A DNA stretch of 64,000 nt from Thermus arciformis (GTDB taxonomy: Bacteria; Deinococcota; Deinococci; Deinococcales; Thermaceae). Within the stretch, counting starts at the first letter, position 1. Every line of letters begins with the position of its first letter. The stretch is taken from assembly GCF_900102145.1 (NCBI RefSeq), contig NZ_FNBC01000002.1, forward strand, positions 62,001-126,000, read 5' to 3'. Shown here in pieces: positions 21,467 through 48,545 of this stretch. The position numbers were made by a program, and so were the translations under genes. The notes below the pieces were generated by a model, which was not told where the DNA came from, did not search any database, and was given only the letters and a program-made list of their open reading frames with translations.

Positions 21467-21665
21467 GGTTCTCCTTTACCTGGGGCTTTTCCTGGTGGTC
21501 CTGGGGGCCCTTCTCCTCTACTTCCCCAAGGCCTTCTCCTGGTTCGGCCACCTGCCGGGGGACATCCGCATAGAGCGGGAGGGCCTAAAGGTGTACATTC
21601 CCCTGGCCTCCTCCCTCCTCCTTTCCCTCATCCTCTCCCTCCTTCTTTACCTCCTCCGGCGTTAG
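21453..21665 (+). CDS. DUF2905 membrane protein
   Basis: 70 residues, two membrane helices joined by the family signature FGHLPGDIRIEREGLKVYIPLASSLLLSL. Function unknown. Last gene of the rlmB operon, overlapping the glucokinase end by 14 bases. Its 3' 81 bases lie opposite the end of the SARP-like regulator gene. Confidence 0.92.
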   Translation: MEAGRVLLYLGLFLVVLGALLLYFPKAFSWFGHLPGDIRIEREGLKVYIPLASSLLLSLILSLLLYLLRR

Positions 21666-23252
21666 CTCCCAAACCTCCGCTTCCCCGGGCCGGGGGAGGA
21701 AGGCCCTCAAGGCGAACTCCGCCACCCCGAGGCCCAGGAAGCGGAGGCCCCAAGGACCCGGAGCCAGGAGGAAGCGGCGGCGAAAGACTCCCTCTAGGCG
21801 CACGAACCCCTTCGCCTTGGGGCCGCGCACCTCCAGGAAAAGCCCCGGGGGGCCTTCGGGGCTGTAGGCTTCCCCCGCCACCTCCAGGACCAGGGCCTCC
21901 TCCAGGGGTTCCAGGTCCAGCCAGGCCTCCTGGTCCCACTCCAAAAGGCCTAGAGCGAAGCCCTCCTCCCCCAGGGAAAGCCCCCCATGGCCTCGAGGAA
22001 GGAGCACCCGCTCCCGGCCCCGGCCCAGGGGCCGCCCCTTCCAGCCCGTGGTCCGGAAGAAAAACCCCTCCCCCACCCGCTCCCCCAGGGCCAGGCGGTG
22101 AAGGGCTTCCTCCTTCAGGCGGCCCGAAAAGGCGAGGGCGGTGGCCGCCCGCTCGTGGAGCTCGTGCCGCCGCCCCTGGTCCAAGGAGGCGTAAAGCAGC
22201 CTTCGCTCCGCCTCGGCGGCGAAGCGGTACCCCTCCTGGTAGACGAGAAAACCCTTGCGCTCAAGCTCCTCCAGGTAGGGGAGAGCCTCCAGGGCGTCCA
22301 AGACCTCCTCGGGGATCCTCCCCGGGGCCACGGAAAGCCTTTCCAAGGCGAGCCGGGCGGGCTCGCTTAAAAGGCGGGTCTGGAGGCGAAGCTGGGCCAG
22401 GGGGCGCTTAGGCCCTTGGGGGCAGGCCAGCCAGTCGGGGATCCACTCCGGCTGGCCCCCGGCGTGGAAGTAGGCCCGGGCCCCTTCGGGGAAGGGCACC
22501 CCCGCCAAGACCCCGCCCTTGGCCTCGAGCCAGTCCAGGAGCGGCAGGGCCAAGACCCGGAGGCGGTCCGCCGGGTAGTGGGCCCGGAGCTCCAGAAAAA
22601 ACCGGGGCTCCTCCCCGGGGTCCAGGCGCAAAACCAGCAGGGCCCGGGAGCGCAAGAGGTCCTTTAGGGGCACCTCGGGGTAGGGGGGAACCAGGTAGAC
22701 CAGCCCTTCGGGCCGCAAGGTCTCGTGGAAGGGAAGGCCCAGGACCCCGGCCAGGGCCTGGGCGAAAGCCCTCTGGCCCGCCCCAAGCCGCCCCTTCAGC
22801 ACCAGGAGAAAGGGGGGGCGCAGGGAGGAAAGCTCCCCGAGAAGCCGCCCCCTGCCCGCGGCCTCCCGGGGGACGTGGTAGCGCTCCCGCACCCCCAAAA
22901 CCCAGTCGGCAAGCCCGCCCACCCCCTCCAGACCCGCCAAAACCTCCCCTTCCCCCATGACCTCCAGCCGGATCCAATCGGGCAGGACCAGGGGGTCTTG
23001 CCCCTTGGGAAAAACCTCCCGCCCCAAGGCCTTGGCCAGGCGGTGGATCTCCACCCGAAGGTTCTGCAGGGCCGCCCCGTGCCCGTAGAGGAGCTCGGCC
23101 AGGCGGGCCCGGGAGGTGGGCCCCTCGAGGGCCAGGAAGTAGAGGAGGGCCAGTCCCTTCTGGGAAAGACGCCGCTCCTTCCCCTGAAAGAGCAACCGGG
23201 GCCTCCCCAAAAGGGGCAAGGCGTGAAGGGAAGCGTGAATAGGGTGTGACAA
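21585..23252 (-). CDS. SARP-like transcriptional regulator with winged helix, BTAD and degenerate P-loop
   Basis: 555 residues. Residues 1 to about 95 (LPLLGRPRLLFQGKERRLSQKGLALLYFLALEG, then ALQNLRVEIHRLAKALG) form the OmpR-type winged helix seen in SARP/BTAD regulators. Around residue 150 is a P-loop-like stretch, GRLGAGQRAFAQALA, in which the Walker Lys is Gln, so ATP use is doubtful. A helical middle region and a beta-rich C-terminal 200 residues follow. TTG at 23252 with GGAAGGT upstream is preferred to GTG at 23285. It diverges from the secretion operon at 23407 and is its likely activator. The charged tail overlaps the DUF2905 gene in antisense. Confidence 0.8.
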   Translation of the reverse strand: MSHPIHASLHALPLLGRPRLLFQGKERRLSQKGLALLYFLALEGPTSRARLAELLYGHGAALQNLRVEIHRLAKALGREVFPKGQDPLVLPDWIRLEVMGEGEVLAGLEGVGGLADWVLGVRERYHVPREAAGRGRLLGELSSLRPPFLLVLKGRLGAGQRAFAQALAGVLGLPFHETLRPEGLVYLVPPYPEVPLKDLLRSRALLVLRLDPGEEPRFFLELRAHYPADRLRVLALPLLDWLEAKGGVLAGVPFPEGARAYFHAGGQPEWIPDWLACPQGPKRPLAQLRLQTRLLSEPARLALERLSVAPGRIPEEVLDALEALPYLEELERKGFLVYQEGYRFAAEAERRLLYASLDQGRRHELHERAATALAFSGRLKEEALHRLALGERVGEGFFFRTTGWKGRPLGRGRERVLLPRGHGGLSLGEEGFALGLLEWDQEAWLDLEPLEEALVLEVAGEAYSPEGPPGLFLEVRGPKAKGFVRLEGVFRRRFLLAPGPWGLRFLGLGVAEFALRAFLPRPGEAEVWELTPEEVKKEGEDEGKEEGGGQGNVHL

Positions 23253-23321
23253 AGCGTTACCTTCCTTACCCCCAGAGTACCACACCCTCGCCTTTCCCCG
23301 CGGGCCAAGGCCCGATCCGCG

Positions 23322-23354
23322 GTAACGCCTCCGTAACGGCCCTGAGGGTACGGT
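23322..23354 (+). promoter_or_regulatory. Direct repeats and -10 of the secretion operon (SARP site candidate)
   Basis: GTAACG at 23322-23327 and again at 23333-23338, exactly 11 bp apart, followed after 10 bases by a possible -10 TACGGT (23349-23354). Direct repeats at 11-bp spacing just before the -10 are how SARP activators bind. A further GTAACG is present on the minus strand near the regulator's own start (revcomp at about 23255-23260). Confidence 0.55.
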
Positions 23355-23406
23355 GAGGACGTCCTAAGGAAGCCACCACTTCCCCGGGACGGATTAGGAG
23401 GCGTTT

Positions 23407-24240
23407 ATGCGCAAAGGCATTTTGGCAGCAGCACTTCTTTTGGTCCCCCTGGCGCTGGCCCAGGCGCCCACGGTTTCCCCCACCCGGGGGAACGGGCCCG
23501 ACGCCTACGCCAAGGGTCAGGATTCGGCGGCGGTGAACCAGACCATTGAGCTCATCCTCCCCAAGGCCACGGCCCTGCACCTGGACGTGACCACCCTCAC
23601 CTTTGACCTCACGGGGCTGGACGGGGCCAGCTGGCCCAACTCCACGCCGGACTTCGGCGGGCAGATGGTGTGCGTTTACGGCCTCCAGGACCAGGACGTG
23701 AAGACCCAGCTGGGGAACAACTTCTACAACCAGGTGCAGACCCTGCCCCTGGGCACCAGCTACAGCACGGCCACCTGGCCCAACGTCACCATCAACGGCG
23801 GCGGGGCGGTGACCGCCTACCCGCCCATCAAGCTGGACAAGAACGGGGAACTGGTGCCGGGGAGCAAGAACTACTTCGTCTGCTACCGCACCTTCATCCT
23901 GCAGAAGTTCTCCAACGGCAAGCAGTGGCACCTGACCGTGAACCGCAACGACCCCGAAGGGGCCCAGGGCATCCAGCACCTCTACATCCAGGACAACCCC
24001 TGCGACACCTTCGGCGCGGCCACGGGCCTCTACGAGCTTCCCAACGGGGCCACCCTGGAGCTCGTGCCCAGGAACCTCCAGGCCGGGCCCACGGGCACCC
24101 GCTCCGGCAACAACCCCCAGCAGTGCGGCTACAAGAGCTGGCTGGATGACCTTGTGGTGGTGGCCGTCAAGGTCAACAGCGACCTCTGGGGCAAGAGCAC
24201 CGCGAACCTGACCTACACCCTCGCCACCACCGCCTGGTAG
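23407..24240 (+). CDS. Exported protein, probable major surface subunit
   Basis: 277 residues with a clear signal peptide cleaved after LALA-QA. The mature part is rich in Thr, Asn and Gly, with alternating hydrophobic strands (TIELILPKATALHLDVTTLTFDL) and four cysteines (MVCVYG, YFVCYR, NPCDTF, QQCGYK) that can form two disulphides. This composition is typical of a structural surface protein. It has a good AGGAGG ribosome site and is the first gene of a six-gene operon. A strong terminator right after it should make it the most abundant product. No known family recognised. Confidence 0.8.
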   Translation: MRKGILAAALLLVPLALAQAPTVSPTRGNGPDAYAKGQDSAAVNQTIELILPKATALHLDVTTLTFDLTGLDGASWPNSTPDFGGQMVCVYGLQDQDVKTQLGNNFYNQVQTLPLGTSYSTATWPNVTINGGGAVTAYPPIKLDKNGELVPGSKNYFVCYRTFILQKFSNGKQWHLTVNRNDPEGAQGIQHLYIQDNPCDTFGAATGLYELPNGATLELVPRNLQAGPTGTRSGNNPQQCGYKSWLDDLVVVAVKVNSDLWGKSTANLTYTLATTAW

Positions 24241-24248
24241 CGGACAAG

Positions 24249-24275
24249 AAGCCTGGCCCCTAAGGGGCCAGGCTT
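24249..24275 (+). terminator. Intra-operon terminator between subunit and chaperone genes
   Basis: Perfect 12-bp stem (AAGCCTGGCCCC and its complement), three-base loop, then CTTTCC. It lies 15 bases before the next start codon, so readthrough must supply the downstream genes unless a further promoter exists. Confidence 0.8.
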
Positions 24276-24290
24276 CTTTCCAGGAGAACC

Positions 24291-25133
24291 ATGAAGCGAG
24301 CCCTTCCCCTTCTCTTTCTGGCCCTCAGCGCCCTAGCCCAGAGCACCCTGGGCGTGGAGCCCCCGGTCCTCCTCAAGGAGGCCAGGCCGGGGGAAAGCCT
24401 CACCCAGACCCTGATGGTCTACAACGTGGGCACCCGGCAGGTGCGGGTCCGGGTGAGCCTGGGGGACTGGACCTACGACCCCATGGGGAAGATCCAGTTT
24501 CTGCCGGTGGGAACCCTTAAGGAAAGCGCAAGCCCCTGGGCCACCTTTTCCCCGGCGGAGTTCCTCCTGGAGGCCAAGGCCTCCCGCCCCCTCACCTACA
24601 CCCTCACCGTGCCCCAAAACGCCGCCCCAGGCACCCACTGGGGGGTGCTCTTCCTGGAGTCGGAAGACCCCAACCCGCCCCCGGGAGTGCCCCTGGCCAC
24701 CTTCCGGGTGCGCATGGCCCACGTCTTCTACGTGAACGTACCCCCCTTAAAGACCGAGGGCCGCATCACCGGCATCGTGCCCAGCGCCCCCAAGGAGGCC
24801 AAGGACCCCTACCGTTTCGCTCTGCAGTACCAGAACACGGGCAACACCGCCCAAAAGCTCTCCGGGCGCTTTGAGGTGCGGGACGCCTCGGGGCGCAAGG
24901 TGGCCCAGGTGGAGGTGGAGGAGGTGGTGGTCCTGCCGGGGCAGGTCCGGGTTCTCCCCGTGGCCCTGGTGGGCCCCTTGCCCGCGGGGAGCTACACCGC
25001 CTTGGCCATCCTCAACTACGGGGACCCCAACAAGGACGTGGCCGCAGACCTGCCCTTCACCCTGCGCACGCCCTTGGCCGCCCCCCCGGCCCCAGCCCCT
25101 TCCCAGGAAGGGGAGAAAGGAGGTTCGCCGTGA
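24291..25133 (+). CDS. PapD-like periplasmic chaperone
   Basis: 280 residues. Signal peptide, then VEPPVLLKEARPGESLTQTLMVYNVGTRQVRVRVSLGDWTYDPMGKIQFLPVGTLKESASPWATFSPAEFLLEA. This matches the N-terminal Ig-fold pattern of pilus-assembly chaperones: strand, N-G turn, W, Ser-xxx-W, and sp-xxFxLxP-like. YTLTVPQNAAPGTHWGVLFLES follows as the G1-strand region. A second Ig-like domain (RFALQYQNTGNTAQKLSGRFEVRD) and a Pro/Ala-rich tail complete it. It probably folds and escorts the exported subunits. Overlaps the next gene by 4 bases. Confidence 0.75.
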   Translation: MKRALPLLFLALSALAQSTLGVEPPVLLKEARPGESLTQTLMVYNVGTRQVRVRVSLGDWTYDPMGKIQFLPVGTLKESASPWATFSPAEFLLEAKASRPLTYTLTVPQNAAPGTHWGVLFLESEDPNPPPGVPLATFRVRMAHVFYVNVPPLKTEGRITGIVPSAPKEAKDPYRFALQYQNTGNTAQKLSGRFEVRDASGRKVAQVEVEEVVVLPGQVRVLPVALVGPLPAGSYTALAILNYGDPNKDVAADLPFTLRTPLAAPPAPAPSQEGEKGGSP

Positions 25134-25618
25134 GAACCCTGCTTTTGGGCCTTCTCCTCTGGCTGGCCCCCGCTTTGGCCCAGGCCACCTGGATCGTGCA
25201 GACCCTCATCCCGGAGACGGTGGCCCTGCGTACCCCCACGACCCAGATCGCCTTTGAGCTTAAGGACTACCCCCCCAAGACCTTTCCCGCCACCTACCCC
25301 GCCAGCAACCTCGAGGGCGGGGTGCTCCCCGTGCAGGTCTTCTCCAACGCCCCCGGGGTGTGGAGCCTCCTCCTGCAAGTCCCCGACCTCAAGGACCCCC
25401 AGGGAGCCGTCCTCCTGCCCGCGCGGCAGGTGCTCTACCGGGTGAACGGGGGGCTTTGGCTCAGGGCCGACGGCACCCCCCAGATCGTCTACACCCAGAC
25501 CGGCCCCACGGAGGGCTGGCTGGAGATCCGCCTGGAGTTCGCCCTGGAGCTCCTCGGGCAGGAGCGGCCGGGAAGCTACGTGGTGCAGGCCCTGGTCACG
25601 GCCCTGAGGCAGCCTTAG
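25130..25618 (+). CDS. Second small exported protein (candidate minor subunit)
   Basis: 162 residues with signal peptide (RTLLLGLLLWLAPALAQA). The mature part is a single beta-rich domain (TTQIAFELKDYPPKTFPATYP, VWSLLLQVPDLKDP, GWLEIRLEFALELLG) without cysteines. Position between the chaperone (4-base overlap) and the usher-like gene (2-base gap) is where minor or tip subunits are encoded in chaperone-usher operons. No homologue recognised, so the role is inferred from context only. Confidence 0.75.
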   Translation: MRTLLLGLLLWLAPALAQATWIVQTLIPETVALRTPTTQIAFELKDYPPKTFPATYPASNLEGGVLPVQVFSNAPGVWSLLLQVPDLKDPQGAVLLPARQVLYRVNGGLWLRADGTPQIVYTQTGPTEGWLEIRLEFALELLGQERPGSYVVQALVTALRQP

Positions 25619-25619
25619 G

Positions 25620-28600
25620 ATGCGAAGGCTTCTCCCCCTCCTCCTCCTCCTGGGCGCGGCCTGGGCCCAGGTGCGCTTCCTGCCCTCCCCTGGGCTTACA
25701 GGCGCCCCGGGGGAGTACCTCACCTTAAGCCTCCAGGTGGAGGGCAGGGGGACCGCGCGCTTCCGCTTAAAGCCCCCCGAGGGCTGGCAGGCCCTCTCCC
25801 TGGAGCGGACGGCGGTCCTGGAAGGAGGGGTGAAAACCCTGAGCTTCACCCTCCGGGTGCCCCCCCTGCCCGCGGGGACCCGGGGCCTCGCCAAGGTGGT
25901 GGCCTACCAGGAGGAAAAGGAGGTGGCCCATAGCGAGGTGGAGCTCCTGGTGCTTCCCCGCACCGAGATCGCCCTCTCCGCCCCCGCCACCCTCGAGGCC
26001 GAGCTGGGAGGCCCCTTTGAGTTCCCCGTCTACGTGACCAACCGCTCCAACCGGAAGGAGGAGATCTTCCTAGAGGCGGAGGCCGCCATGGCCCAGGTCT
26101 TCCTCAACCCCAAAGGGCTCAACCTGGCCCCCGGGGAGACCGGGGTAGTCCGGGTCCAGGCCAGCCCGGAAGGCCAAATCTCCGCAGGCTACCGCTTTTA
26201 CCTGAAGCTCCGCGCCACCCCCAAGGGGGTGGCGGAGGCCCGCAGGGAGGCGGGGGTGATCGTCCTCTTCAAGGACCCCCTGGGAGGGCGGGGCCAGGGC
26301 AAAGACCCAGAGCTCACCCTGGGCCTAGGCCTGGCCCTAAGCCTCGGGGCCCTCTGGGAGCGGGGGCAGGTCCAGGGCCAGGTGGGCTACCAGGTGAGCG
26401 CTAGCCTCACGGGGGCCCTCTCCGACTACGTGAGCGCAAGCCTCGCCCCAAGCCCCTTGAGCGGGGACCTTCAAGACCCCCTGCGCCTTCCCCAAAGCTT
26501 CACCTTAAGCCTGAAGGGAGAGGGGTTTGAGGCCCGGGCCCAGGCGGGCGGGGGAGGCTTCGGCCTGGCCGGTAGCCTCCGGCTACCCAGCGCGCGCCTT
26601 AGCCTGGAGGGGAACTACCGGCCCCAGGCCCTGGCCCTGCGCACGAGTGGGGTGAGCCTGGACAAGACCCTGGACCTCCAAGGGAGCCTCAGCACCCAGA
26701 CCACCCCCACTGGCAGGCAGGACGCCCTAAGCCTCCGCTACCGCCTCCCCCTGGAAAGCGGCCTTAGCCTCGGCCTGGGCACCGACCTCTCTGGCCAGGC
26801 CGGGGAGGCGTACCGCCTGAGCTTCGGCCTGAGCCAGACCCTCACCTGGCAGACCCAAGACCTGGAGCTGGTGCAAAGCTATAGCGGCGTGCCCCTCTCC
26901 GGCCTCCACGCCCTGGGCCTCGCCGGGGGCACGCGAAGCCTTTACCCCCTGGGCCTGAGGGGAAGCACCAGCTGGCAGGTGGGAGGGGCTTCGGGGCTTT
27001 GGCAAAGCCAGCTCACCCTCTACTACCAGCCTCTTACGGGGGCCTTCCTGAGCCTCACGGGAAGCTACCGCCAGCAAGGGGAAAGCCGCGGCTATGGCTT
27101 GGCCCCAAGCCTCAGCGTGAGCTTCGGCGAGCCCGGGGTGTACGCGGGTAGCCTGGGCCTGGGCTATGGCCTCAACCGGGCCCTCTCTGGGGATGCCCCG
27201 GAGGGCCAAAGCTACCAGGGAAGCCTCAGCCTGGGCACACCCGACCTGAGCCTTTCCGCCTTTTTGCGCTATCTGGACCAGGCCCTTCCCCTCCTCGAGG
27301 GCACCCTCCTCCTCCGCTTGGCCCTGCCGGGGGGGAGCCTGGAGGGCCAGTATCTGGTCAAGCGGGGCACCGACAAGGACCTCACCCTCTACGGCGCCGC
27401 CTGGAACCAGCTCTGGCCTGGGGTCTGGCAAAGCCGCCTCTTCTACGAGTACCGGCAGGAAGCCGAGGCCAGCCAGCGCTTTGGCCTGGCCCTTTACGGG
27501 CGGAACTTTTTGGAGCCGGGCCTGGCCCTAGGGGCCACGTACACCCTCATCCTCCAGGGCGGGGAGGTCCGCCACAGCGTGGGGGCCACCCTGGCCTACG
27601 CCCAGGCCCTCACCCTGGCCACCCCCAAGGAGGTGGTGGACCTCTTCGGCGGGCGCAAGGGAGGAGAGGTGGCGGGCACCGCCTTCCGCGACGAGAACCT
27701 CAACGGGCGCCTGGACCCCGGGGAAGCCCCCTTGGCAGGCCTCAAGGTGTGCCTGGGGAACGCCTGCGAGACCACGGACGCCGAGGGCCGCTACCGCCTT
27801 CTGGCCCCCATAGGCCAAGGCCGCCTCCTCTTCCCCAACCTCCCCGCCAACCTGGCCCTGGTGGGGGAGGAGGCCCTCGAGGTGCGCTTGAACAGCCGTT
27901 TGGACAAGCCTCTTCCCTTCGCCCCCGCCACCCAGCTTCGGGTGGAGGTTTTGGATGAGGAAGGCGGAACGGGGCTGGCCTACGCGGGGGTCTGCGCTAG
28001 AGGGCCCGTCACCCGGTGCACCCGGGCCGACGTGAACGGCCAGGCGGTGCTCGGCGGCCTTTTCGCTGGCCTCTACCGGGTCTACCCCGACGCCCGCTAC
28101 CTGCCCGAGGGCTACCGGGAGGTGGAGGCCAAGGAGGTGCGGGTGGGCGAGGGCCCGCCACCCCCCGTCCAGGTCCGGGTGGCCCCACCCAAGCGGGAGG
28201 TGGAGGTGACCTACACCGCTGAACGCCTGAGCCTGGTGGCCACCGCCGACCCCTCCGTTCCCCTGGCCGGGTCCGAGGTGGAGGTGAAGGCCCTGGTCCA
28301 GGGAGAAGCCCGGAAGGTCTGGGTGGAGCTCCCCACCGGGCCCGTACCCCTCCTCCCCCAGGAGGGCAACTCCTACAGCGCCCGCCTCCGCCTCCCCCTC
28401 CCCCCGGGCCTCCACACCCTCAAGGTGCGGGCGAGCGGCCAGGAAGAGGTGGAAACCCCCCTCGTGCTCCAGGTGGTGGCGGGCCCCCTTTACAGCCCCC
28501 AGGCCCTGGAAGGCCCCAAGGTCCGCCTCACCTTGCGGTTCCAGGCCAGGGAGGTGGCCTTGGGAGGGGAGGGTCGGTCCTTCCCCCTCCAAAGCGAAGA

Positions 28601-28724
28601 CGGCTACAGCTGGACCGGGGAGGTGGCCTTGGGCCCCGGCGAGCACCTCTTTTCGGTGCTGGCCGACGGGGAAGCCCTGGGGCCAATCCGCCTCAGCATC
28701 CCCTCGGAAAGCGCGAGTCAGTGA
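25620..28724 (+). CDS. Usher-like outer-membrane beta-barrel protein
   Basis: 1034 residues. Signal peptide; two Ig-like domains (residues about 20-215, e.g. EIALSAPATLEAELGGPFEFPVYVTNRSNRKEE); then about 430 residues (about 235-665) of alternating hydrophobic/polar strands with Gly-Ser-Leu turns and aromatic ends (LSLRYRLPLESGLSLGLG), as in a large outer-membrane barrel. After that comes an SdrD-B/CarboxypepD-like domain with an EF-hand-like calcium loop (DENLNGRLDPGE), another Ig-like region, and a C-terminal domain. The length and layout resemble fimbrial ushers although the classical FimD signatures are missing. It stands behind a PapD-like chaperone and exported subunits, so secretion and assembly of these is the likely task. 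Confidence 0.72.
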   Translation: MRRLLPLLLLLGAAWAQVRFLPSPGLTGAPGEYLTLSLQVEGRGTARFRLKPPEGWQALSLERTAVLEGGVKTLSFTLRVPPLPAGTRGLAKVVAYQEEKEVAHSEVELLVLPRTEIALSAPATLEAELGGPFEFPVYVTNRSNRKEEIFLEAEAAMAQVFLNPKGLNLAPGETGVVRVQASPEGQISAGYRFYLKLRATPKGVAEARREAGVIVLFKDPLGGRGQGKDPELTLGLGLALSLGALWERGQVQGQVGYQVSASLTGALSDYVSASLAPSPLSGDLQDPLRLPQSFTLSLKGEGFEARAQAGGGGFGLAGSLRLPSARLSLEGNYRPQALALRTSGVSLDKTLDLQGSLSTQTTPTGRQDALSLRYRLPLESGLSLGLGTDLSGQAGEAYRLSFGLSQTLTWQTQDLELVQSYSGVPLSGLHALGLAGGTRSLYPLGLRGSTSWQVGGASGLWQSQLTLYYQPLTGAFLSLTGSYRQQGESRGYGLAPSLSVSFGEPGVYAGSLGLGYGLNRALSGDAPEGQSYQGSLSLGTPDLSLSAFLRYLDQALPLLEGTLLLRLALPGGSLEGQYLVKRGTDKDLTLYGAAWNQLWPGVWQSRLFYEYRQEAEASQRFGLALYGRNFLEPGLALGATYTLILQGGEVRHSVGATLAYAQALTLATPKEVVDLFGGRKGGEVAGTAFRDENLNGRLDPGEAPLAGLKVCLGNACETTDAEGRYRLLAPIGQGRLLFPNLPANLALVGEEALEVRLNSRLDKPLPFAPATQLRVEVLDEEGGTGLAYAGVCARGPVTRCTRADVNGQAVLGGLFAGLYRVYPDARYLPEGYREVEAKEVRVGEGPPPPVQVRVAPPKREVEVTYTAERLSLVATADPSVPLAGSEVEVKALVQGEARKVWVELPTGPVPLLPQEGNSYSARLRLPLPPGLHTLKVRASGQEEVETPLVLQVVAGPLYSPQALEGPKVRLTLRFQAREVALGGEGRSFPLQSEDGYSWTGEVALGPGEHLFSVLADGEALGPIRLSIPSESASQ

Positions 28725-28741
28725 GAAAGGAAGGAATTCGT

Positions 28742-29911
28742 ATGCGGCATTGGTACGGCGTTCTTTTGGCGGTGGGGCTCCTGGCGGCCTGTTCCCAGAG
28801 CCCCCAAGGGGGGGTAACCCCTCAGGTGGCGGTGGGTCCCTCGGTGGAGGTGACCAAGACCGCGGTTCCCAAGTTCAAGCGCACCTACACCTGGACCATG
28901 GCCAAGCGGGTCACGGACCCTTCCAGCGGCACGCTCACCCTGGCCCCTGGGCAAAGCTACCCGGTGAAGTACGCGGTGGACCTGGTGGGCACCCCTAAGG
29001 ACTCGGACTTCCGGGTGGAGGGCACGGTGACCCTCAAGAACACGGGCAGCGTGGACGTGGTCCTGCAAGCGCCCACGGACACCCTCACCCCGGACGGGAC
29101 CAGCGTGCCCCTGGCCTGCGGCGTGACCTTCCCCTACACCCTGCCCGCGGGGCAAAGCCTCGTCTGCGCCTACAGCCAGGCCCTGCCCGATGGCCGAAGC
29201 CGCACCAACACCGCCTCCGTGAGCTGGACGGACGGAAGCCAAAGCGGCACCGCCTCGAGCCAGGCCAGCTTCGCCTTTACCAACCCCACCGAGGTGGTGG
29301 ACGGAAGCGTCACCGTGGAAGACCCCTCGGCCACCTTGGCGAGCGCCATCAGCGGCATCACTCCCGAGGGCGTCATCTCCCAGACCTACTTCTTTGAGCG
29401 CTGGGTGCGCTTTGATGCCTGCGGGGAGTACGAGGTGCAAAACACCGCCACCTTCACCACGAGCACCACCCAGACCCAAGGAAGCGCCTCGGCCACGTTG
29501 AAGGCAAGCGTGCCCTGCCAGGGGGGCTGCACCCTCACGCAGGGCTACTGGAAGACCCACTCCCGCTACGGCCCCGCCCCTTACGACGCCACCTGGGCCA
29601 AGGTGGGCGAGGACACCCCCTTCTACCTCTCCGGCCAGAGCTACCACCAGGTCCTCTGGACCTCCCCTTCCGGGGGTAAGGCCTACTACATCCTGGCCCA
29701 CCAGTTCATCGCCGCCAGGCTGAACGTCCTGAACGGGGCCTCCACCACCCCCACCGTGGACGCGGCCTTGGCCTGGGCGGACCAGTTCTTCCAGACCTAC
29801 AGGCCTAGCGACACCTTGAGCAAGGCCGTGGCCAACCAGGCCAAGGGCTACGCCGGCACCCTGGACGCCTACAACAACGGCCTCACAGGCCCTGGCCACT
29901 GCAGCGAGTAG
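28742..29911 (+). CDS. Lipoprotein with TQGYWKTH domain
   Basis: 389 residues. Lipobox LLAACSQ near residue 16. The middle is beta-rich (GTLTLAPGQSYPVKYAVDLVG, VTLKNTGSVDVVLQAP), resembling DUF11/Ig-like surface repeats. The last 130 residues start CQGGCTLTQGYWKTHSRYGPAPYD and continue in a helical domain. CxxTQGYWKxH is a recurrent motif of secreted proteins in several phyla with no known function. ATG at 28742 follows AAGGAAGGA; an upstream GTG (28721) overlaps the usher-like gene. Likely surface-anchored adhesin or cap of the assembled structure (inference). Confidence 0.78.
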   Translation: MRHWYGVLLAVGLLAACSQSPQGGVTPQVAVGPSVEVTKTAVPKFKRTYTWTMAKRVTDPSSGTLTLAPGQSYPVKYAVDLVGTPKDSDFRVEGTVTLKNTGSVDVVLQAPTDTLTPDGTSVPLACGVTFPYTLPAGQSLVCAYSQALPDGRSRTNTASVSWTDGSQSGTASSQASFAFTNPTEVVDGSVTVEDPSATLASAISGITPEGVISQTYFFERWVRFDACGEYEVQNTATFTTSTTQTQGSASATLKASVPCQGGCTLTQGYWKTHSRYGPAPYDATWAKVGEDTPFYLSGQSYHQVLWTSPSGGKAYYILAHQFIAARLNVLNGASTTPTVDAALAWADQFFQTYRPSDTLSKAVANQAKGYAGTLDAYNNGLTGPGHCSE

Positions 29912-29930
29912 CCGCTTTGGGAGGCAAGGC

Positions 29931-30362
29931 ATGAAAAAACACCTTTGGTTCCTTTTCCTGGCCCTCGCCGCCTGTTCCGCTCCCCAGGGCCTCCGCACCA
30001 CGGGGAGCCTCCGCATCCAGTCGGTCCAGCCGGACGTGGTGGCGGGGTGCCAGGTGCGGGCGGGGGACTGGATGCTCCTCACGGGCAACGCCTTCGGCAC
30101 CCAGGAGGAGTGGGATAGCGGCACCAACTACGCCCTCTTCCCCCCTGACCCCGGCCTGCCCGCGGAGTCCCCGGAGATCACCCAACGGGAAAACCCCGCC
30201 ACCCTCATGTTCCGCGTGCCCGAAGGAGCGCAAAGCGGCCTCCTCCGCCTCCACGTGGCGGGGGTGGGGGATGCGGAGATCCCCGTGAACGTGCAGGCCG
30301 TGGCCCCTCAGATGGCCGTCCCCGGGTGCGAGGCGCCCACCCCACCTCAAGCCCCCAGGTAG
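29931..30362 (+). CDS. Small lipoprotein with IPT/TIG-like fold
   Basis: 143 residues. Lipobox ALAACSAP at about residue 15. The mature protein has IQSVQPDVVAGCQVRAGDWMLLTGNAFGTQEEWDS and later LMFRVPEGAQSGLLRLHVAGVGDAEIPV, the strand pattern of IPT/TIG immunoglobulin-like domains, plus two further cysteines that may pair. Last gene of the secretion operon, 19 bases after the TQGYWKTH lipoprotein and followed by a bidirectional terminator. Confidence 0.75.
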   Translation: MKKHLWFLFLALAACSAPQGLRTTGSLRIQSVQPDVVAGCQVRAGDWMLLTGNAFGTQEEWDSGTNYALFPPDPGLPAESPEITQRENPATLMFRVPEGAQSGLLRLHVAGVGDAEIPVNVQAVAPQMAVPGCEAPTPPQAPR

Positions 30363-45623: not shown

Positions 45624-48464
45624 TTAGAACTTCACGGTGTAGCTGATCTTGAAGGCCTGACCGTGGGTCTGGTTGCCGTTGTTGTTCACGTCGGCTTCCA
45701 CGTAGGCGAAGGTGAGGTCCCAGTACGTCCAGGTGAAGTACCACCCGGTCACGCTGCCCTGGTTGCTCCCCACCGAGCTCACCGCATTGTTGTAGAGGTA
45801 GTCGGAGGTGGTGGAGCTGGCGGCGTCAGCGACACCCAGGAGAATGGGGGCGTTGAGGCCGCTGCCCGTGTAGGAGGCGTACTTGGCTTCCACCGAGGAG
45901 TTCTTGAAGAGGAACTCGCCCAGCTTCAGCCCCACAGCGTACTTGCTTTCGGAGATGGTGCCCGTGGCGGAAGAACCGCTGTTGGCCGAGGTTACCTGGG
46001 TGGAGCGGGCGTAGTACTCCCCGGAAAGGCTGGGCTTGAAGGGAAGGTCCAGGGCAATAGAAGCCGCCACCCCGTACTTCACCGTGGTGTAGTCGGAAGA
46101 AGTGCTCGCTGCCGCGGCGTCCTGGGTGTGGTACCGGCCCATGGGCTTGAGGGTTAGAGGCCCGAGGGCCAGCTCGTAGGAACCGTAGACGGCGATGTCC
46201 TGGGTGGTGAAGCCGCTGGTGGCGTTGTCGTACTTCTGGGTGTAGGCGGCCGTGAGGTTGAGCTTGGGCACCAGAGCGTCCTTAGAGGCCCCATCGTGGG
46301 CCAGCTTGGCCCCGTACTCGCTGGCGTACACCGCGTCCACGGGCTTCTCGGTGAGGATGTAACGGGTGGTGGCGCCGTTGAGCTGGGCGATGCGGTAGAA
46401 ACCGCTCAGCGCGAAGCCGCTGAAGGCGAGATCCGCCTGACCGCCGTAGGCCACGAGCTGGTCGTTCGCGCTGTAGCTGAAGGCGCCGTAGGAGTTGCTA
46501 ATGGTCTCGTTGGCAAGGATCGTGGAGCTGTCATAGTAGCCCTTGACCGTGATGGGTCCAAGCCCCGCGGAAGCGCTCACCCCAAAGCCCTGGCGGTTAG
46601 AGCGGAAGGGCGCCCCGTTGATGACGTTACCGCTGGAATCAACGCCGCCCCAGCCGCCCTGGTCCAGGGTGCTGGTGGCGTCCCCGGAGAGCATGTTCGC
46701 CCCGGTAACCCCGGCGCCGATGTTCCGGTAGTTCCCCGCCACGGAGATAGACCCCAAGGCCACGTCGGCCTTCACGTAGTACCCGTTCGCGTTGGGAGCG
46801 GCATCGGAATTGAAGTACTCCCCAGCGAGGCCCACAGGACCAAGCTTCACGCTGGCATCCACCCCGTACACGGTGGTGGGGGTGGGGAAGGTGGGGGTAA
46901 TGGTCCCCTGGTTGGCGTCCAGGCCCTCCTGGACAAAGGAGCCACCCAAGGTGAAACCTTCAGCGGGGCTCAAGGCCAAGCGGGCGCCGCGGAAGTACGT
47001 GAAGTCCCCATTGTTAGCCCCCTTGGACCCGTAAACCCCAGTCAGCGTAGCCCCCAGAAGGCCCGGCTTGAAGGTGGCCACGAAGCCATGCCCGCGGCTG
47101 TTGTAGTCGTTGTCAAAGACGTACTCGGTGAACTTGGACCTTACCGACCGACCGAAGCTGAAGGAGAGGGTCTGGTCCTTGGCCACCGCCAGCGTGGAGG
47201 AAAACTCATCCAGGGTGAGGTTGATGGGGTAGGTGGGCGCACCCGTGCTGGGGTCGTATTTGCCGGGGTTGGTCAGCGTCGCGCGCAGGCTGAACTGGAC
47301 CAGGCCGGGGTAGCTGTTCAGCTTGCCCGGATCGGAAGCCGCATCCAACTTCCCCGTGGAGAAGTTGACGCTTAGGGTGGCGTTGGTGACGCCCTCCGTG
47401 TTCTTGCCCAGGTCGGCCTCGTCGCCCACAGAGCCATCCCCGTCCCCGTCCTCAGTGCTGAACTTGCTGGAGAAGAGGCGGTCAATGTCAAAAGTGTTGG
47501 CCGTGCCCGGCCCTGCAGCCGAGGCGTCGGGGCCCCAGGCCCGATACACGCTGTAGCCGAGGCTCAGGCTCCCGCTGATGGTGAAGGCGTTGCGCTGCAG
47601 GGTGGCCACGGTCCTTTCCAAGTTGGAAACCTTATCGGAGAGGCCCACCAGGTCGGAGCGCAAGGCGGCGGCGAAATCCTGCACCGCGGCCACGTCCTCC
47701 TTGGAGGCGAACTGCTCAAAGTCCACCCCCTGCAGGTCAGCCAGGCCCTTCTCCAGGGCGGTCACCCGGTCCTGGAGGGCCAGCACGTCCTGGTTCAGGA
47801 GGACGGCGAGCTCGTTCAGAGCCTGGATGGCCTGGGCGTTGGCCTCCACCTGGGTGGAAAGGGCGGCCACGTCGCCCTTTACCCCCTCCACGTCCTGGGC
47901 CAAGGCGTCCAGCTGCTCGGCCAGCTGCTGGGCCTGGGCCAGGGCGGTGTCCGCGGCGATGGAGGCGGCCTCCACCCGGTCCATGAGGTCCTGGAGGGCG
48001 GCCTGGTCCATGCCGGGCTCGGGGGCGGGCTGGGCCTTGAGCTCGGCGATCATGGCCTCGAGGCGGGCGATGTCGTCCTTGGTGGCGGCGCTGTCCTCCA
48101 GGGCGGAGACCCGCACGCCCAAGGCAGCGAGCTCAGCGGCGAGCTCCTGCACGGCGTTCTTCAGGGCCTCGAGGTCCTCGGAGGACATGGCCTCCATGGT
48201 GGGGGAGGTGCCCTTGGCCTTCAGCTCCTCCTCAATCTGCTGCAGGAGGCGGTAGATGATGAGGGCCGCCTGGTAGCGGGTGAGGTTCTCGTTCCCCCGG
48301 TAGGTGCCGTCGGGGAAGCCCACGATGATCCCCTTGGCCGCCAGGGCCTCCACCGCCTCCTTGGCCCAGTGCCCGGCGGGCACGTCGGAGAACTGGGCTA
48401 GACCGAAGCCCATGGAGAGCACGGTCAAGAGCCCTGCCAGTAGCGTCACGAGCCTTTTCTTCAT
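45624..48464 (-). CDS. slpA: S-layer/outer-envelope protein SlpA
   Basis: 946 residues, the major envelope protein of Thermus. Signal peptide (KKRLVTLLAGLLTVLSMGFGLAQ); one SLH domain at about 25-68 (FSDVPAGHWAKEAVEALAAKGII) that binds pyruvylated cell-wall polysaccharide; a long coiled coil at about 75-270 spanning the periplasm; then a large beta-rich, porin-like domain ending in SYTVKF with a terminal Phe. The sequence agrees with T. thermophilus SlpA as I know it with scattered differences and indels. ATG at 48464 gives MKKRLV; GTG at 48476 is unlikely. Strong promoter, long leader and terminator of its own. Confidence 0.97.
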   Translation of the reverse strand: MKKRLVTLLAGLLTVLSMGFGLAQFSDVPAGHWAKEAVEALAAKGIIVGFPDGTYRGNENLTRYQAALIIYRLLQQIEEELKAKGTSPTMEAMSSEDLEALKNAVQELAAELAALGVRVSALEDSAATKDDIARLEAMIAELKAQPAPEPGMDQAALQDLMDRVEAASIAADTALAQAQQLAEQLDALAQDVEGVKGDVAALSTQVEANAQAIQALNELAVLLNQDVLALQDRVTALEKGLADLQGVDFEQFASKEDVAAVQDFAAALRSDLVGLSDKVSNLERTVATLQRNAFTISGSLSLGYSVYRAWGPDASAAGPGTANTFDIDRLFSSKFSTEDGDGDGSVGDEADLGKNTEGVTNATLSVNFSTGKLDAASDPGKLNSYPGLVQFSLRATLTNPGKYDPSTGAPTYPINLTLDEFSSTLAVAKDQTLSFSFGRSVRSKFTEYVFDNDYNSRGHGFVATFKPGLLGATLTGVYGSKGANNGDFTYFRGARLALSPAEGFTLGGSFVQEGLDANQGTITPTFPTPTTVYGVDASVKLGPVGLAGEYFNSDAAPNANGYYVKADVALGSISVAGNYRNIGAGVTGANMLSGDATSTLDQGGWGGVDSSGNVINGAPFRSNRQGFGVSASAGLGPITVKGYYDSSTILANETISNSYGAFSYSANDQLVAYGGQADLAFSGFALSGFYRIAQLNGATTRYILTEKPVDAVYASEYGAKLAHDGASKDALVPKLNLTAAYTQKYDNATSGFTTQDIAVYGSYELALGPLTLKPMGRYHTQDAAAASTSSDYTTVKYGVAASIALDLPFKPSLSGEYYARSTQVTSANSGSSATGTISESKYAVGLKLGEFLFKNSSVEAKYASYTGSGLNAPILLGVADAASSTTSDYLYNNAVSSVGSNQGSVTGWYFTWTYWDLTFAYVEADVNNNGNQTHGQAFKISYTVKF

Positions 48465-48545
48465 ATCCCTAAACACCCCCTTCAGGGTCTTTCGGGAAGA
48501 GGGTGCGGGCGAGTTTCCGCGTTTCCTCTCCCACCCAGCTTCCCG

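Follow-up and report, generated by a model that had tools for sequence, protein, structure and literature searches.

Within a 64,000-nucleotide stretch of the Thermus arciformis genome (contig NZ_FNBC01000002.1, positions 62,001 to 126,000 of the forward strand; hereafter the window), we characterized a locus made up of six co-oriented genes, forming one operon, and a divergent regulator gene, which together probably encode a chaperone-usher-like pathway for assembling proteins on the cell surface. This arrangement had been described in an initial annotation made from sequence alone, and all of the open reading frames were found where that annotation had placed them. Every operon product bears a Sec signal sequence or a lipobox, with the signal peptides ALAQ, ALSALAQ, PALAQ and AAWAQ and the lipobox LAAC (twice) readable in the translations. 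From the chaperone gene onwards, neighbouring genes overlap or almost touch, and a scan for sigma-70-like promoters found none. The features of the locus, numbered from the first nucleotide of the window, are:

21585–23285, minus strand: regulator of 566 amino acids, with an N-terminal SARP-like winged helix and a central AAA+-like region whose Walker A motif is degenerate
23286–23406: intergenic control region, assigned from its sequence, that separates the operon from the divergent regulator gene
23407–24240, plus strand: SUB1, exported subunit of 277 amino acids, with the N-terminal strand motif IELILP
24246–24278, plus strand: covarying hairpin downstream of SUB1 and ahead of the remaining operon genes, with a 15-bp perfect stem and a TAA loop, followed by T
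24291–25133, plus strand: CHAP, exported tandem-immunoglobulin (Ig), PapD/WxLIP-like chaperone of 280 amino acids, with a predicted long G1 strand at about residues 138–150
25130–25618, plus strand: SUB2, small exported subunit of 162 amino acids, whose gene overlaps the chaperone gene by four bases
25620–28724, plus strand: BARREL, outer-membrane protein of 1034 amino acids, with a signal peptide followed by Ig-like, barrel, SdrD-B-like and Ig-like parts
28721–29911, plus strand: LIPO1, lipoprotein with a TQGYWKTH motif, likely starting at the ATG at 28742
29931–30362, plus strand: LIPO2, small lipoprotein matching no Pfam family

The locus is a repeated unit far beyond chance, because both its gene order and its homologous proteins recur and because two diverged copies lie in the same genome. 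BLAST and profile scans recovered a conserved order of divergent regulator, subunit(s), chaperone, small subunit, barrel and, often, lipoprotein from Thermus species, from other Deinococcota families and from a Deinococcus plasmid on which all of the cassette proteins are annotated 'hypothetical'. Within the source genome, the second cassette (G000:C79, locus L037) carries genes for three large subunits and for a regulator of its own, and its proteins share 40% (regulators), 39% (chaperones), 37% (small subunits) and 29% (barrels) identity with those of the window; the third (G000:C28, locus L109) is smaller. Across the phylum, the chaperone profile matched in 61 of 111 Deinococcota genomes, and 68 of the 83 clear chaperone loci (56 genomes) had a barrel match no more than 4 kb away, with at least two of the other 15 also carrying a barrel gene on inspection. 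Beyond Deinococcota, the search covered plasmids and one scan of genome contigs. No paper naming or describing the cassette was found in the literature searched, the coverage of which excludes most subscription journals. The two further cassettes, together with a link to WxL-interacting proteins (WxLIPs) and a conserved hairpin, go beyond the initial annotation.

Variants of the cassette were also observed. On plasmid 2 of Deinococcus deserti (L108:5342-9190), a minimal version consists of a small exported protein, a chaperone annotated 'FimB/Mfa2' and a barrel protein annotated 'carboxypeptidase regulatory-like'. Chaperones with an archaic-like GSYR motif were encoded at L047:10847-11698 and L115:8146-9000, with the barrel gene on the opposite strand. 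In one genome (G010, L012:4030-4140), the barrel gene is interrupted close to residue 857, where the coding sequence divides into two frames at a shortened run of C; this could reflect phase variation, decay or sequencing error. Paralogous barrel genes in several short frames were present in Thermus genomes (G019:C5:66989-68169 and G025:C32:7214-8149), suggesting that the second cassette is decaying there.

Profile homology and fold matches both upheld the earlier assignment of a PapD-like Ig chaperone. Single-protein searches of PHROGs, NCBIfam and PDB sequences returned nothing useful for the cassette proteins, and the window chaperone matched no Pfam family above the cut-off. Among 24 chaperone homologs, the commonest Pfam match was WxLIP_PGBD (n = 11, at low significance; best E 9e-4), and the closest PDB match by sequence was a WxLIP of Enterococcus faecium (E 3e-4). 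Using alignments of archaic, classical and WxLIP families built for this analysis, hhalign matched the chaperone profile to archaic chaperone-usher chaperones across both Ig domains (96.3%, E 1.6e-9; stable at 95.0–96.7% in leave-one-out comparisons), to WxLIPs at 93.1% and to classical chaperones at 19%. The known archaic–classical pair scored 96.3% in the same setting, whilst reversed or shuffled templates used as controls reached no more than 1.4%. Third-type chaperones gave better separation (archaic 97.9%, WxLIP 96.4%, Ig-pair control 73%). The invariant proline of chaperone-usher chaperones was kept at the aligned position in 21 of the 24 sequences. At its C terminus, the window chaperone has a proline-rich soluble tail and its paralog a beta strand, neither of them a transmembrane helix. 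Judged by these sequence comparisons, CHAP is a tandem-Ig, PapD-like protein lying between archaic chaperone-usher chaperones and WxLIPs, with the profile scores ordering the families as classical, archaic, Deinococcota and WxLIP.

Structural modelling took advantage of the second cassette, where the genes for chaperone and small subunit lie in one reading frame, by translating L037:4905-6170 with stop-codon read-through. The fused model had a mean predicted local distance difference test (pLDDT) score of 85.8 and a predicted template modelling (pTM) score of 0.77; since this pTM is high despite a 25-residue disordered linker, the model suggests that chaperone and small subunit are held in a fixed arrangement. 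A long strand (137–153) occupies the G1 position of PapD-like chaperones, and Foldseek matched the chaperone part to WxLIP (5e-10), FimC, CfaA, YadV, CupB2, Caf1M, CsuC and EcpB.

SUB1, SUB2 and the paralogous subunits were joined into one family by BLAST. An N-terminal strand of the pattern hydrophobic-x-hydrophobic-x-hydrophobic-proline (VxVxIP) was present in 27 of 34 subunits, against 3.8 expected by shuffling, and a C-terminal strand bearing a glycine at −13 to −16 occurred in the same proportion (27 of 34). All of Escherichia coli FimA, FimF, FimG and FimH have a glycine at −14; a similar C-terminal pattern also occurs in three of four WxL domains, and the glycine signature is thus suggestive but not specific. 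Homology of the subunits to WxL domains was considered and rejected (hhalign 0.4% and 2.9%). The lipoproteins had been proposed as tips, an assignment that found no support: a lipid anchor points to tethering at the membrane, and the matches to LIPO1 came from Thermus and its nearest relative alone. LIPO2 is more widespread than LIPO1, being retained in many non-Thermus cassettes.

For the 1034-residue protein, AlphaFold2 (mean pLDDT 84) predicted two Ig-like domains (18–218), a barrel (231–667), SdrD-B/CarboxypepD_reg-like domains (682–860) and further Ig-like domains (870–1028), in an arrangement that is uncertain given a pTM of 0.50. Both the large outer-membrane barrel and the SdrD-B-like module of the initial annotation were thereby recovered, the latter also across homologs (Pfam SdrD_B in 25 of 26, CarboxypepD_reg in 24 of 26). 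An usher barrel consists of 24 strands, with a plug domain inserted; the model shows 29 strand segments and no such insert. The top Foldseek matches were a mixture of ciliary Ig-repeat proteins and the ushers FimD and PapC, the latter two being the best bacterial fold matches (E 1e-13), ahead of other barrels (about 5e-7).

The expression of the cassette may be shaped by two further elements. The hairpin at 24246–24278 was picked out by visual inspection and a search for stems, a simple terminator scan not having reported it. Most cassettes, orthologous as well as paralogous, have an equivalent stem ahead of the chaperone gene, and it usually ranks in the top 1% of locus windows; among eight orthologs 8 of 14 base pairs had changed on both sides; this covariation score was reached by none of 500 shuffles, a control that kinship of the sequences can inflate. 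Because paralogous copies bear T runs, the hairpin is likely a partial terminator favouring the first subunit(s), although it may instead be an RNA-processing or stabilising element. The regulator had been called a winged-helix/BTAD protein, of which the winged helix was retained: its N-terminal region matched that of an annotated BTAD-type regulator (80.6%), the signature common to SARP/BTAD regulators. Unlike these, in which a BTAD domain follows, no BTAD was detected by Pfam search, and the middle region is instead similar to AAA+ ATPases (best E 3e-6), with another residue in place of the Walker A lysine.

Overall, the operon is probably a divergent chaperone-usher-like pathway, in which a chaperone assists the assembly of beta-sandwich subunits, which pass through a large barrel to reach the surface. 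The organization characteristic of archaic pathways is present, namely co-directional exported subunits, a periplasmic chaperone and a large outer-membrane barrel. We infer that Sec would export every operon product and that, in the periplasm, the tandem-Ig chaperone would lend its long G1 strand to the incomplete beta-sandwich of SUB1 and SUB2. The periplasmic Ig-like domains of the barrel protein would then receive these complexes and the subunits would exit via the pore. Outside, the VxVxIP strand of one subunit would displace the chaperone strand in the next by donor-strand exchange, building a fibre or surface coat that the lipoproteins may tether or cap at the membrane. Placed after SUB1, the hairpin would leave the major subunit in excess over the machinery, and the divergent regulator would switch the operon.

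The closest comparison is with archaic (sigma) pili such as Csu (CsuA/B-CsuC-CsuD), which share the gene logic of subunits, tandem-Ig chaperone and large barrel, as well as chaperone homology across both domains, the invariant proline and a C-terminal, glycine-led subunit strand. Classical type 1 and P pili (FimC-FimD-FimA, PapD-PapC-PapA) have in common with the cassette the chaperone fold, the barrel fold matches and the subunit glycine near −14, but the chaperone and barrel profiles reach only 19% and 2%, and the classical A1-strand anchor arginine has no clear Thermus counterpart. The initial annotation had confined chaperone-usher systems to proteobacteria, which does not hold, as the archaic family has been reported from Deinococcus-Thermus and Cyanobacteria (PMC4654587).

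Several results weigh against a chaperone-usher assignment. The chaperone did not match PF00345, and the N-terminal Ig pair of the barrel protein itself scored 93.4% against the chaperone profile, so the chaperone signal is in part generic to Ig domains. CsuC Arg89, which anchors the subunit carboxylate and is a hallmark of archaic chaperones (PMC4654587), aligns with W117, a position occupied by tryptophan in 23 of 24 homologs and by arginine in one. The subunits showed no homology to SCPU (PF05229; profile match 6%) and matched no relevant Pfam family. In the barrel model the longest internal gap is 9 residues, leaving no inserted plug, and Foldseek TM-scores against ushers were low (0.2–0.38). 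The usher family PF00577 was matched by none of the 26 barrel homologs, in agreement with the lack of FimD signatures noted initially. A 90% match of the barrel protein to archaic ushers, a candidate proof of homology, was rejected when it fell to 19% once one sequence was left out, and the barrel part alone reached 2%; homology of the barrel to ushers is not established at the sequence level. In place of the usher N-terminal domain, the Thermus protein has its Ig pair, and SdrD-B-type domains follow its barrel. Because the usher family, plug, SCPU domain and hallmark arginine were all tested for and not found, we describe the cassette as working like a chaperone-usher system and do not file it as a member. 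The earlier proposal of a chaperone-usher-like cassette in Deinococcota is supported by the order of the genes, by the homology and fold of the chaperone, by the fold matches of the barrel and by the signatures that the subunits share, without membership of the usher family.

A plasmid of Deinococcus actinosclerus (CP029776.1, L067:762-7833) carries a genuine archaic chaperone-usher operon, with the usher annotated as hypothetical. This usher has no PF00577 match, yet scored 98% (E 2e-14) against other archaic ushers. Pfam surveys therefore undercount chaperone-usher systems in Deinococcota, and the absence of PF00577 from all 111 Deinococcota genomes is weak evidence.

More tentatively, the cassette may represent a separate donor-strand branch, specific to Deinococcota within the searches made, whose chaperone links the archaic and WxLIP families and in which a plugless, non-usher barrel of roughly 26–28 strands independently took the usher's role. 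An alternative reading is a surface complex of WxL/WxLIP type in a diderm bacterium, in which the tandem-Ig protein would stay bound to its subunits as a structural envelope partner and the barrel would be an outer-membrane scaffold, not a pore for export. Like the cassette, the Gram-positive WxL/WxLIP (DUF916-DUF3324) clusters place a tandem-Ig, chaperone-like protein beside a small beta-rich partner, and a WxLIP strand inserts into WxL by AlphaFold2 prediction (PMC10599100). WxLIP is moreover the closest solved structure to the chaperone by both sequence and fold, and the most frequently matched Pfam family. We nevertheless consider such a complex unlikely, since the subunits lack the WxL motif and domain, the chaperone has no C-terminal transmembrane helix of the kind that anchors full-length WxLIPs, and WxL clusters have no outer-membrane barrel, whereas the fold matches of the Thermus barrel are to ushers.

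Chaperone homology to the archaic family, and the escape of the genuine D. actinosclerus usher from PF00577, would fit a true archaic chaperone-usher system that evolved fast, with an usher drifted past sequence recognition; this appears improbable given that the D. actinosclerus usher is still recognized by its archaic relatives and matches the Thermus barrel at only 4.8%, and that the cassette has no plug, usher N-terminal domain or SCPU subunits. Inverse autotransporters have a 12-strand barrel. Equally doubtful is an adhesin of this kind, displaying its own C-terminal SdrD-B/Ig domains with the small proteins as accessories, because, despite the SdrD-B and CarboxypepD_reg-like domains typical of surface proteins being placed after the barrel, the 29 strand segments far exceed 12, a chaperone is co-encoded in most loci and an even strand number would leave the C terminus in the periplasm.

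If the chaperone-usher-like pathway is correct, a whole phylum of diderms gains a surface-organelle pathway from genes now annotated as 'hypothetical', 'FimB/Mfa2' or 'carboxypeptidase regulatory-like'. The origin of chaperone-usher pili would also become testable, as the order of families from classical through archaic and Deinococcota to WxLIP suggests a common ancestor of Gram-positive WxL systems and pili. The stability of Thermus proteins helps structural work on barrel translocation. The new parts are the WxLIP link and the plugless barrel, the surprise being limited because the archaic family was already known from Deinococcota. Elsewhere in the window, on the minus strand at 45624–48476, lies a gene for SlpA (PF21620, SLH domain), an S-layer/outer-membrane tether protein.

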